This document shows positions 50,268 through 58,009 of a stretch of DNA of 64,000 nucleotides, piece after piece. The position numbers and the translations under genes were made by a program. Below the pieces are notes generated by a model that worked only from the letters and a program-made list of their open reading frames with translations, did not search any database and was not told the origin of the DNA. Source of the stretch: Allomeiothermus silvanus DSM 9946 (GTDB taxonomy: Bacteria; Deinococcota; Deinococci; Deinococcales; Thermaceae); the NCBI RefSeq assembly GCF_000092125.1, contig NC_014212.1:826001-890000 (forward strand), read 5' to 3'. How positions within the stretch are numbered: position 1 is the stretch's first letter; the number at the start of each line of letters is the position of its first letter.

Positions 50268-50307
50268 GATCAGGCTATCCTCAGCCGAAGGGTGTAAGAT
50301 CATACTT

Positions 50308-50405
50308 GTCACCGGGGGAGCCCGGCCCTATGCGGCCTGGGCTGAGAGGGCGAAAGCCCGACTCTTGGAACCTGATCCGGGTCATACCGGCGTAGGGAGA
50401 GTGAC
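50308..50405 (+). ncRNA. TPP riboswitch (THI element)
   Basis: The thiamine pyrophosphate aptamer has its conserved parts in order: GGGGAGCCC, CTGAGAGGGCG, the closing CCCGAC, and GAACCTGATCCGGGTCATACCGGCGTAGGGA. The P1 stem is GTCAC (50308-50312) with GTGAC (50401-50405). TAAGAT (50295-50300) just upstream can serve as -10 box. It precedes a thiamine uptake operon, its usual target. Confidence 0.95.
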
Positions 50406-50415
50406 CAGAGAAAGG

Positions 50416-50444
50416 CCCCTTCTCGGTGACACGAAGGGGGTTTT
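50416..50444 (+). terminator. Expression platform of the TPP riboswitch
   Basis: CCCCTTC (50416-50422) and GAAGGGG (50433-50439) form a hairpin followed by GTTTT and then the ATG at 50445. The GAAGGGG arm is also the only ribosome binding site. The hairpin loop has CGGTGAC (50424-50430), complementary to GTCACCG (50308-50314) of the aptamer's first strand, so ligand-free RNA can open the hairpin. Confidence 0.7.
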
Positions 50445-51563: not shown

Positions 51564-53096
51564 ATGCCCCGACGCTTTCGGTCTTTTGCCTGGCTGGCCT
51601 GGCCGGTGTGGGCTTTCCTGGCCCTGGCCCTTTTCTACCCGCTGTGGCAGATTCTCGCCTTGGGGGTGGGGGAGGGGTTAGGCCCCACCCTGGCCAACCC
51701 CTACTACTGGGGCCGCCTGGCTTGGAGCCTGGCCTACGGGCTGGGCTCGAGTTTGCTGGTGATCGCCCTGGCGCTTCCGCTGGCCTACGCCTTCCGTTAC
51801 CGTTTCCCCGGGCGTGACCTCTGGCTCTCCCTGGCGACGGTTCCTTTTGTGCTTCCCACCATAGTGGTGGCGCTGGGCTTCCTGGCCTTGGTAGGACCGC
51901 ATGGGGTGCTGGGGATCAACCTCTACGGCACGCCCTGGATTCTCTTCTGGGCCAGCGCTTTTTACAACCTTGGGCTGGTGTTGCGGATGCTGGTGGCGGT
52001 TTTGCCAGCCCTCGAGCCCCCCTTGGCCGCCGCCCGCACCCTGGGAGCCCCTCCGCTGCGGGCCTACTGGCGGGTAGGGGCTCCCCTACTGGCCCCGGCC
52101 CTCCTCGCCGGGGGCGGCCTGACGTTTTTGTACAGCTTCAGCAGTTTTGGCCTACCCCTGCTGCTGGGTGGGTCGCGGTACGCCACAATCGAGGTCGAGG
52201 TCTACGGGCTGTTGGCCTACCGCCTGGCCTTTCCCGAGGCCACCGCCTTGATCCTGCTGCAACTGGCGGTGTTAGCCCTGGTGAGCTTTCTTTACCTGAA
52301 CGCCCAGACCCGGCTCTCGCTCTCCTTGGCCCCTTCCGCTTTGCCCAAAGCCCTACCCAGTGCCGCGGCCTGGCGTCTGGCGGCGGGGGTATGGCTGTTT
52401 TTCCTGGCCCTGTACGCCCCGCTTTTGGCCCTGCTGGCTCGAGCCTTGGCTGCCCCGGAGGCGTTGGCCTCGGCCTGGACGGGCGGGGACTTCACCCCCG
52501 GCGCGCTGGCCCTGGCCAACACCCTGCGCTTCGCCGGGCTCAGCTTGCTGGTGGCTTTGCCGGTGGGCTTTGCCTATGCCTACGCGGTCTGGCGGGGGGA
52601 TAAGGGCCTCGATCTGGCGGGCCTCTTCCCGCTCATGGTGAGCCCGGTGGCGGTGGGGCTAGGGTATCTGCTGGCTTACCCTAGCCTGAGCGGTTCGCTC
52701 TTGATCCTGATCGGGGCTTATGCGCTGCTGAGCTACCCGCTGTTGGCCCGGGCCCTACTACCGGCTTTGCGGGCCCTGCCCAAGGGGGTGCTCGAGGCCG
52801 CCCGGGTGCTGGGAGCCAGCCCCTGGCGCAGGCTTTGGCGGGTGGAGTGGCCCTTGCTGCGGCCTGCGCTCCTCTCGGGTACAGCCTTGGCCTTGGCGGC
52901 GGTGGTGGGGGAGTTCGGGGCCACGCTGGTGCTGCGGCGGCCTGAATGGACCACGCTCTCGCTGGCCATCTACGAGCGCTTGGGAAAGCCGGGGGCGGAG
53001 CCCTTCCGGGAGGCGCTGGCGCTGGCGGGATTGCTGGCGGTGCTGGCGGGGGGAGTGTTTTTGCTGTTGGACCGGGGGCGGAGGGCGGTCGGTTAG
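51564..53096 (+). CDS. thiP: Thiamine ABC transporter permease
   Basis: A 510-residue permease with two fused halves of about six helices each. The two EAA loops are AARTLGAPPLRAYWRVGAPLLAP and AARVLGASPWRRLWRVEWPLLRP. A TTG at 51540 is a possible earlier start; the ATG at 51564 gives a normal N-terminus. It follows thiB by 33 nt. No ATPase gene (thiQ) follows, so the energy-coupling subunit must come from elsewhere. Confidence 0.9.
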   Translation: MPRRFRSFAWLAWPVWAFLALALFYPLWQILALGVGEGLGPTLANPYYWGRLAWSLAYGLGSSLLVIALALPLAYAFRYRFPGRDLWLSLATVPFVLPTIVVALGFLALVGPHGVLGINLYGTPWILFWASAFYNLGLVLRMLVAVLPALEPPLAAARTLGAPPLRAYWRVGAPLLAPALLAGGGLTFLYSFSSFGLPLLLGGSRYATIEVEVYGLLAYRLAFPEATALILLQLAVLALVSFLYLNAQTRLSLSLAPSALPKALPSAAAWRLAAGVWLFFLALYAPLLALLARALAAPEALASAWTGGDFTPGALALANTLRFAGLSLLVALPVGFAYAYAVWRGDKGLDLAGLFPLMVSPVAVGLGYLLAYPSLSGSLLILIGAYALLSYPLLARALLPALRALPKGVLEAARVLGASPWRRLWRVEWPLLRPALLSGTALALAAVVGEFGATLVLRRPEWTTLSLAIYERLGKPGAEPFREALALAGLLAVLAGGVFLLLDRGRRAVG

Positions 53097-53106
53097 AGAA
53101 AAGAGG

Positions 53107-53140
53107 GGGCGTGGGGGGGTACATGGACTCCCCCACGCCC
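53107..53140. repeat. Hairpin after thiP
   Basis: GGGCGTGGGGG (53107-53117) and CCCCCACGCCC (53130-53140) form a perfect 11-bp stem 10 bp past the thiP stop. It lacks a T run but may still end or protect the thiBP transcript. Confidence 0.5.
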
Positions 53141-53238
53141 GCCAGAGGCGGAGATAACAGCGACCAGGAGAGAGCGTTCTTGAAACTTGGAGTAGGGGGT
53201 TCCATCGGGGTAAAACTCCAACCAAACACCCGTGGCAT

Positions 53239-53260
53239 CCGCCCCGCCTTGGCGGGGCGG
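53239..53260. repeat. GC-rich hairpin in the thiP-ligase gap
   Basis: CCGCCCCGCC and GGCGGGGCGG pair perfectly around a TT loop. It marks the start of a 250-bp run of repeats. Confidence 0.5.
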
Positions 53261-53313
53261 GAAGCATTGCCATATGCATGCCGATACGGAGTCAAGGGGC
53301 TCGGACGGAGCCT

Positions 53314-53367
53314 ACCCGGCTGTCGCCGCGAAACTACGCCACCCGGCTATCGCCGCGAAACTGCACC
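53314..53367. repeat. Tandem 27-bp repeat (two units)
   Basis: Two adjacent 27-bp units begin ACCCGGCTGTCGCCGCGAAA and ACCCGGCTATCGCCGCGAAA and differ at three positions. A shorter relative, TCGCCGCGAA, recurs at 53418 inside the next hairpin. Confidence 0.65.
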
Positions 53368-53405
53368 TCGGGGATGGGTGCTGCACTGGCAGCCCCATGA
53401 GAACC

Positions 53406-53479
53406 GAGATGCTTCTTTCGCCGCGAAGCGGGGTGAAGCCCCGCTCTACCCCGCCTACCGGCGGCGAAAGAAGCGTCTC
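53406..53479. repeat. Long hairpin with a nested stem
   Basis: GAGATGCTTCTTTCGCCGC (53406-53424) pairs over 19 positions with 53461-53479, with a single G-U wobble. Inside lies a second stem GCGGGG-TGAA-CCCCGC type (about 53428-53444). The intergenic stretch 53097-53589 has no gene I can support, so this is the main structure in it. Confidence 0.65.
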
Positions 53480-53589
53480 AGAGCGGGGAGTCGTCACTAT
53501 ATGCTGAAGCCCGCTGAGTTTTGTAGGCACCGGCTCGGGAGCCTCGAGACCCGGCCCTAAGGTGGGTGGGGTTGGCCTGAGTAGTAGTT

Positions 53590-55062
53590 CTACGCAACCC
53601 CCTCGGGTGGGGTAGGCTTTTGCCCCAGCAAAGCCCAGGCGGCGGCAATCAAGACCAGGTGCAAAGGCTCGACCTGGGGTACGGGGAACCAGAAGAGGTA
53701 GTAGATAAAGATGGCTAGTAAACCCATGGCGAGAGATCGTTGCAACAACCGCCCTCTCCAACCCCTCAGTACCGGGTACAGATACAAGCCCAACCATACC
53801 AATGCGCCTAGCAGGCCAAAGGCCAACAGCCGGTCCAGGATTAGATTGTGAGCCTTATCGAGAAAATACATGAGTATCTTGGCCGCTTTCCCTGAACCGG
53901 TCCAGTTTTCAAATTCGACCAGAAACGAGCGGGATCGTAGAGGGTCATTGGCGCGCCATAGCGGCTTTATCTCCTTTACCCGCGCTTGTGGCGGCCACCC
54001 GTACTCTAAGCGGTATTCCTCTAGCAGATGTTCGATGGGAATATGGCGGATAAGAGCCAGGCGGAAGGCGTCAGGACCCCCGCCGAGCACAGGCCAGCCA
54101 GGGATGGTGCGGGTAGCCTCCCAGGCGAGCTTCCAGATGATGATACGGGTTTGACCCGTGGTGAGATCAGCATAACTACGGTCGAAACCCAGGCGGTTTG
54201 GCAGCAACTCCTTGGCAGCGAAGAAGCTAAGGAGTACTAAGCTGCTGGCCCACAAAAGGCGTGGTTGTCGCTGAATCAAGTTCCAGATGAGCAAAATACC
54301 TATAAGCGCCAGCAGCGAAGCTTTGTTAGTGGTGACCCCCAAACCCGCTGCGATGAGCAGCACTTGCAAGAGCAGCCAGGCGCGTTTCCTCTCTTCAGTC
54401 AGAAGCCACATCCCCAAGCCGACAAAAACCAGCGGTAGCAGGAAACCCGCAGCCATGCCGGGGTGGCCGATAGTACCGACCGGGGCCTCATAGGGAACAC
54501 CCCGAACCAAAGGGCCAATGAACTCCGCACCCAGTTTTTGTGCCATGAGGATTGCTGCCTCCAGGCTTCCCCCCAGCACCATCACGCGCAGTGCGATGAT
54601 GGCGGTTGACGAAGTCCCTGCGTTAGCAGAGGAAGTTTCCTGCCGCAGCACCCGGTAGGCAAAAATCCCGAAAAGAACAAGCCCGACTTGGTATAAGAGG
54701 CCATCCAGACGTCCCCGGCCACCCAGAATGACGGATGAGGCATCGTCATCCTGGGCGTTCAAAGAACTAGGTATGACACTGGCAAGGTAAACCAGCAGCA
54801 GAATAACAAAAGGGCTACGGTAGGCTGCCATGCCCCGCTGGGCCTGCAGGAGCCCCAGGATACCCACAAACAGCAGCAAAAGTATGCGCGGGAGGATCCA
54901 CACCTCTTCAGGGTTGACCCATGCAGCACCGAAATAAAGAGGCCGGACGATAAAGGGGTATAGCAACAGCACCCCGGTCAGTAAGAAGAACCAGAAGCGC
55001 TCAGCTTGCAAATTATGTGTCCACCAGGTCTTTTGCAAGAAAAACTCCGTGCATTCTGGCAT
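53590..55062 (-). CDS. O-antigen ligase-family membrane protein, candidate pilin oligosaccharyltransferase
   Basis: A 490-residue protein with about twelve membrane helices and a long external loop (about residues 300-400). That loop holds TGQTRIIIWKLAWEATRTIPGWPVLGGGPDAF and later DKAHNLILDRLLAFG, the Wzy_C core with R, W, GxGP-like and H residues. The family joins glycans to lipid A, or, as PglL/TfpO types, to Ser/Thr of pilins. It starts (ATG 55062) right at the stop of the second pilin gene, so pilin glycosylation is the most likely role (inference). Upstream in-frame codons to 55233 overlap the pilin gene and are not used. Confidence 0.78.
   Translation of the reverse strand: MPECTEFFLQKTWWTHNLQAERFWFFLLTGVLLLYPFIVRPLYFGAAWVNPEEVWILPRILLLLFVGILGLLQAQRGMAAYRSPFVILLLVYLASVIPSSLNAQDDDASSVILGGRGRLDGLLYQVGLVLFGIFAYRVLRQETSSANAGTSSTAIIALRVMVLGGSLEAAILMAQKLGAEFIGPLVRGVPYEAPVGTIGHPGMAAGFLLPLVFVGLGMWLLTEERKRAWLLLQVLLIAAGLGVTTNKASLLALIGILLIWNLIQRQPRLLWASSLVLLSFFAAKELLPNRLGFDRSYADLTTGQTRIIIWKLAWEATRTIPGWPVLGGGPDAFRLALIRHIPIEHLLEEYRLEYGWPPQARVKEIKPLWRANDPLRSRSFLVEFENWTGSGKAAKILMYFLDKAHNLILDRLLAFGLLGALVWLGLYLYPVLRGWRGRLLQRSLAMGLLAIFIYYLFWFPVPQVEPLHLVLIAAAWALLGQKPTPPEGVA

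Positions 55063-56824: not shown

Positions 56825-58009
<1,185 letters not shown>

Follow-up and report, generated by a model that had tools for sequence, protein, structure and literature searches.

A probable decayed IS200/IS605-type element lacking tnpB and invaded by 27- and 30-bp repeats behind thiP in Meiothermus silvanus

The window, by which we mean the whole stretch of 64,000 nucleotides that was analysed, corresponds to C1:826001-890000 of the Meiothermus silvanus DSM 9946 genome. The block discussed here (493 bp, window positions 53097-53589) is placed directly 3' of a gene that we take to be thiP, a name carried over from an earlier sequence-only reading, and is followed by a ligase gene. 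The thiP gene is preceded by a binding-protein gene and a TPP riboswitch, which supports the name. The riboswitch, upstream of thiamine-transport-like genes, was located by Rfam at 50304-50416 on the + strand (68.5 bits). Elsewhere in the window, a transposase-like ORF of 379 aa lies at 56825-57964 on the + strand; within the 324 kb that surround the window, 14-mers taken from its C-terminal coding part were counted 11 times, so this ORF represents a high-copy IS.

The structures that the sequence-only reading had described are all present. They comprise an 11-bp stem (GGGCGTGGGGG/CCCCCACGCCC, 53107-53117 / 53130-53140), a 10-bp GC stem (53239-53248 / 53251-53260), two tandem 27-bp copies that are 89% alike (53314-53340 and 53341-53367), and a pair of 19-position arms (53406-53424 / 53461-53479, 95% complementary) enclosing a nested stem. 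The TCGCCGCGAA core that had been thought to link the tandem repeat to the long hairpin is also real: it is common to both tandem copies and the hairpin arm (repeat family D2), and both structures consist of copies of related short repeats. None of 200 dinucleotide shuffles folds as well as positions 53230-53500, whichever strand is taken (z = -5.41 and -4.39).

Searching the genome for the block and its repeat, a check that had been proposed with the original description, revealed that both are dispersed. The block gives 55 matches in M. silvanus, a count that includes the block, and the 27-mer pattern has 53 matches at up to three mismatches, against none for the reversed control. Long parts of the block occur at four places in M. 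silvanus, namely the window, C1:310 kb, C1:553 kb and C2:309-310 kb; in the C2 copy, both ends lie either side of a broken tnpB. When the clean C1:553 kb copy was used as the query, at least a partial match (E <= 0.001; weakest match 5.9e-4) was found in 39 of 50 family genomes, so that the block is neither unique in its genome nor without counterparts in relatives. Another short hairpin repeat (CGATAGCCCGTCCCGAT...) occurs both inside the broken C2 tnpB (L031 near 1090-1140) and where the C1:310 kb copy is truncated on its left (L032, reverse strand near 465-500).

The same ends flank an open tnpB in eight fetched loci of relatives (L091-L093, L095-L097, L099 and L101), in which identity to the clean C1:553 kb copy is 84-95% for the right end and 73-95% for the left end. 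The TnpB of L092, the only one of the eight that was scanned, contains the Pfam domains OrfB_IS605, Cas12f1-like_TNB and HTH_OrfB_IS605. By eye, a TnpA-like fragment with the motif DHVHLF can be recognized between the same ends in L100. Loci L037-L040, four of a set of six, come from unrelated organisms and were left out. TTA(G/T) starts 32 of the 34 distinct left ends that were listed with their flanks; these ends were collected by internal motifs, which are therefore constant by construction, and the decayed end in the window is not among them. The ends have subterminal imperfect hairpins and, by eye, no terminal inverted repeats, and in the left-end listing the bases outside both ends were, again by eye, unrelated and displayed no target-site duplication. 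Relatives that bear tnpB or tnpA between the same ends, subterminal hairpins and a fixed short target are, at the level of sequence, the hallmarks of IS200/IS605 elements. We conclude that the left end, right end and right junction, as compared here, are shown to be those of a Thermaceae element family whose fuller members carry tnpB and, in one case, a tnpA-like fragment. The window copy itself has neither gene, and the same comparison assigns it to a tnpB-less subfamily in which a covarying core of ~136 nt replaces tnpB.

The left junction is formed by TTAG at 53093-53096, which is the thiP stop codon, and the exact left base is uncertain by 1-2 positions. Similarity to the sister species (G001) restarts, by eye, at 53498, the base after GTCGTCAC. 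Judged by this similarity, the element ends at 53497 and positions 53498-53589 are flank resembling G001. Other genes sit between thiP and this flank in G001, which therefore offers no perfect empty site for the element. The thiP-ligase gap of G001 (L137, G001:C1:481700-484700) contains small genes with a nucleotidyltransferase- and HEPN-type look (by eye).

We therefore read the block as a decayed, non-autonomous IS200/IS605-type element whose insertion site lies 3' of the TTAG that ends thiP and which carries four short-repeat insertions, and we put the probability of this reading at roughly 0.9. Its predicted parts are as follows.

53097..53497, + strand: whole element, probably a decayed, tnpB-less IS200/IS605-type element, with ends common to many genomes
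53097..53145, + strand: left end, with its subterminal hairpin at 53107-53117/53130-53140; the internal part with GCTATAATCCCCC that is present in other copies is missing
53169..53298, + strand: structured core X, eroded; match to covariance model R1 at 56.7 bits (L034:170-299), its losses being visible in an alignment of 26 matches
53239..53260, + strand: 10-bp GC hairpin interrupting the core; some copies have it and others lack it
53297..53497, + strand: right end, 201 nt as against a 90-nt version that is common to tnpB-bearing relatives
53314..53367, - strand: two tandem 27-bp repeats of type A, inserted in the right end
53408..53434, + strand: type C 27-bp repeat beside the right-end hairpin, the ends of the insert being uncertain by a few bases
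53438..53488, + strand: original right-end hairpin, GCCCCGCTCT...AGAGCGGGG, its loop opened by a 30-bp insertion
53448..53477, - strand: 30-bp repeat, a variant of type C, in the loop of the right-end hairpin and inverted relative to 53408-53434
53498..53513, + strand: flank in putative guide position, so placed by its location next to the right end and by the ISDra2 precedent (PMC8612924)

The right end is exactly 90 nt long in 18 of 28 distinct ends, and 66-114 nt long in eight others. That of the window measures 201 nt, which equals 90 + 2x27 + 27 + 30, and that of the C1:310 kb copy measures 174 nt (90+27+27+30). In 26 of the 28 right ends, the spot occupied by the tandem repeat is a mere 2-nt junction, TT or TG; in the window 54 bases are added there, and in the C1:310 kb copy 27. 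The number of type A units at this one spot is thus two in the window, one in the C1:310 kb relative and zero in the other 26. The 28 ends were collected by a motif that the C2 copy did not fit, and this copy, which carries the same two hairpin insertions as the window, was not counted. Together with the length arithmetic, the 26 empty right ends identify the tandem 27-mers, the hairpin-side 27-mer and the loop 30-mer as insertions. The 27-mer of 53408-53434 is found, identical, at five other places in the M. silvanus genome. The 27-mer and the 30-mer are inverted to each other, which generates the 19-position stem. The right-end hairpin itself shows compensatory changes across 12 copies.

This comparison of right ends shows four inserted 27/30-bp copies: a tandem pair, one copy next to the right-end hairpin and one within it. 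On that evidence, the tandem repeat and the 19-position stem consist of four dispersed repeats that were inserted, and do not form one designed structure. The element probably spread after receiving the two hairpin insertions, since three loci have both of them at the same places; gene conversion is an alternative.

In 50 family genomes we counted three types of these repeats, allowing up to three mismatches. Type A (27 bp) was found 54 times in M. silvanus, eight times in the sister species G001 and four times in the other 48 genomes; the corresponding counts are 53, 15 and 10 for type B (30 bp) and 23, 10 and 7 for type C (27 bp). All reversed controls returned zero, and none of the three types occurred in the 27 genomes of genus g4. 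The total for the three types in M. silvanus is ~130, a rough figure in which a few matches overlap between types. A looser expression that allowed 24-35 bp gave 16 matches in the 324-kb stretch, 15 of them convincing and all of 27 or 30 bp, against two for the reversed control; applied to 140 kb of G001, it gave none (control, one). A K-mer count of the 324-kb stretch was dominated by an IS copy. A generic gapped pattern intended to cover all short repeats was dropped, its spacing being wrong and its yield no better than that of the reversed control, and was replaced by the three specific patterns. It did find units of 28 bp, so that neither the 27/30-bp lengths nor the multiple-of-three rule is strict. 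A variant of type A, CCGGCTATCGCCGCAAACATACGCC, also occurs in ten identical copies (e.g., G000 C1:40875, 108099, 401855 and 1628803), possibly carried by an IS.

An alignment of 58 kb to G001 revealed insertions of at least 18 bp, 14 in M. silvanus and six in G001. Of the 14, only the insertion at C1:765921 corresponds to an exact 30-bp unit, and its site is empty in G001; the other 13 are not exact units. Several repeats lie within genes. At the repeat, the Hera helicase is exactly nine residues longer than structure 4kbf, and a Pfam match (glycosyltransferase 2) spans the repeat in another protein, as does a weak, below-cut-off match in an alanyl-tRNA-synthetase-like protein. Two further proteins, an HTH_17 protein and a histidyl-tRNA-synthetase-like one, have the repeat where the domain ends or beyond that point. 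Of 30 loci, several of which come from the same arrays, 19 have a frame that stays open across the repeat for at least 100 aa; several of these frames are clearly not genes, and we claim no in-gene rate from them.

In the tnpB-less copies, the core takes the place of tnpB and is better conserved than the ends (12 copies). Column identity averages 96% over the ten copies used for the model, a value that overstates conservation because these copies were picked by a core motif, three of them from one genome, and diverged copies exist. The model of this ~136-nt core has 66 matches in 19 of 111 Deinococcota genomes, all of one family, under search filters stricter than usual with which weak matches may be lost. 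Both end motifs were found on one strand in 17 of 30 fetched core matches, one motif in nine and none in four. An alignment of 26 matches to this covariance model, an approach that had been suggested with the original description, indicates that core pairs covary: in this alignment (A3), which was fitted to the model structure, 95.2% of cells are paired and both sides have changed in 21 of 43 pairs. None of 500 shuffles was as good as the core structure, and sliding gives at most eight pairs. In the diverged copies L179, L181, L192 and L193, both strands of helices have visibly changed (by eye).

The motif TANAAT lies directly upstream of the core in seven of the 11 copies that have that stretch. 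Searched at the gathering thresholds, the whole window matched only TPP and one tRNA in Rfam, with no match in the core; at E <= 1, positions 53050-53600 and four loci returned miRNA, DsrA, HgcC and others, all far below their cut-offs. The core also has no match in the fetched tnpB-bearing loci. It thus appears as a candidate RNA family without an Rfam match, present in 19 genomes of one family. The leading results of a literature search contained no description of the element, the core or the repeats in Meiothermus or Thermaceae. G039, of genus g4, has 22 core matches, several of them near contig ends, which suggests that the core copies of this genome have been amplified. The proposal that the block might be a structured RNA is accordingly supported by covariation for the element family; in the window copy, which still scores 56.7 bits, the 5' hairpin and the promoter-like box are missing and the closing stem is partly lost.

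The element would have been moved as single-stranded DNA by TnpA supplied in trans, with its hairpins as putative TnpA recognition sites. In intact copies, core and right end may be transcribed from the TANAAT-like box; the transcript would start near GGGGACAG and run through GTCGTCAC into the flank. The 90-nt right end of such copies would then serve as scaffold for a TnpB guide RNA (reRNA), and this putative scaffold is kept in clean copies, in sequence and structure. If an RNA were made from the window right end, the flank at 53498-53513 would be its guide.

As for possible partners, the most similar tnpB of M. silvanus, on C2 and 84% identical, is broken. Another tnpB of the genome, with 503 codons and 57% identity to the family TnpB, is open; it adjoins a tnpA split into two matches, one of them with a stop. 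Two tnpA+tnpB elements (L115 and L116, at C1:1172 kb and 1902 kb) have probably been active recently, since they are identical over 1742 bp, and their left end is 81% like that of the window copy. They end in GTGTCAA where the window element has GTCGTCAC, so they may not mobilise it. With the 5' hairpin of its core and the promoter-like box lost, and with the most similar tnpB broken, the window copy is presumably inert, and it is best read as a dead or dying non-autonomous element.

A more far-reaching reading is that tnpB-less copies are guide-only elements, kept for an RNA composed of core, right-end scaffold and flank guide. This RNA would use TnpB proteins encoded at other loci of the genome and would thereby re-install the element after excision or act on other targets. 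The likeness of the right end of the clean copy to those of the eight tnpB-bearing loci agrees with this, as do the core, which covaries and is the most conserved part of the 12 aligned copies, the upstream TANAAT and the open 503-codon tnpB. However, the core gave no match in the fetched tnpB-bearing loci and is therefore not a needed part of TnpB guide RNA, the compared copies were picked by similarity, which inflates conservation, and the losses in the window copy mean that at best other copies act in this way. We consider this reading possible, if doubtful. The same tentative standing applies to its fuller version, in which a Thermaceae guide-only selfish element, made up of a new structured RNA and a TnpB scaffold and served by TnpB in trans, is combined with a burst of 27/30-bp mobile repeats in the M. 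silvanus lineage.

The other alternatives are much weaker. Short palindromic units scattered through the genome could point to a REP/REPIN-type repeat mobilised by a RAYT transposase, as the term "REP/MITE-like" in the sequence-only reading implied, but the large element has the ends of a tnpB element, and the 27/30-bp units occur in tandem and inside genes, unlike extragenic REPs. A Y1_Tnp search, which is not RAYT-specific, gave five matches at four places, all beside tnpB, and no lone RAYT-like gene at the cut-off. A small MITE-like mobile repeat at two nested levels is what survives of that term, and a REP origin is very improbable. We give slightly less credence still to an ordinary thi-operon leader, terminator or small RNA gene of the host. 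The block is highly structured and directly downstream of thiP, but the element was not seen 3' of thiP in G001, Calidithermus chliarophilus or C. roseus (L035 and L036 for the latter two; by eye), recurs elsewhere in the genome and in relatives, and has no Rfam match. Its recurrence, and its absence behind the thiP of relatives, refute such an origin for the sequence; it could conceivably have been co-opted as a terminator. Least credible of all is a protein-binding or CRISPR-like array. The suggestion of a binding array found no support beyond one 27-mer present in two tandem copies: copy number at the same spot varies from zero to two among element copies, the copies abut without spacers, and the unit is scattered through the genome and also lies in frame inside genes.

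Read as a decayed IS200/IS605-type element, the hairpin cluster becomes a readable stack of insertions with empty sites, and both layers are nested in the window. The 0, 1 or 2 copies at one spot provide a natural experiment on how the 27/30-bp repeats move and expand, as do the two hairpin insertions common to three loci on the insertion load that a transposon end tolerates while spreading. If mobile, the repeats would rank with the smallest mobile units so far put forward, and could enter conserved enzymes in frame. If the core is transcribed with the right end, these elements would test the use of TnpB guides in trans by elements that lack TnpB.

The element resembles IS200/IS605 members of the IS1341 type, and their derivatives without tnpB, in its subterminal hairpins, its short T-rich left target without duplication, its right end common to tnpB-bearing members and its right-end hairpin with compensatory changes. 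It differs in that the subfamily has a structured core instead of tnpB, and in that the window copy is decayed and invaded. The reRNA (omega RNA) of ISDra2 TnpB offers a parallel in its right end after the tnpB 3' end, its terminal hairpins and the flank in the place of the guide (PMC8612924). By contrast, the window element has no tnpB, a right end of 201 rather than 90 nt and an extra core upstream.

The 27/30-bp repeats work like cyanobacterial SDRs (small dispersed repeats), being short, dispersed, tandem and possibly mobile. Unlike SDRs, they are often 27 or 30 bp long and lie in frame inside conserved enzymes; the likeness meant here is one of behaviour. Elhai and colleagues reportedly described in 2008 the nesting of cyanobacterial SDRs in other repeats. 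SDRs are given as about 20 bp long, tandem and possibly mobile in papers that cite them (PMC2884548; PMC3116915). Rickettsia palindromic elements likewise insert in frame in unrelated genes, and are about 150 bp long, according to a review of MITEs (PMC10969869), compared with 27-30 bp for the repeats described here.
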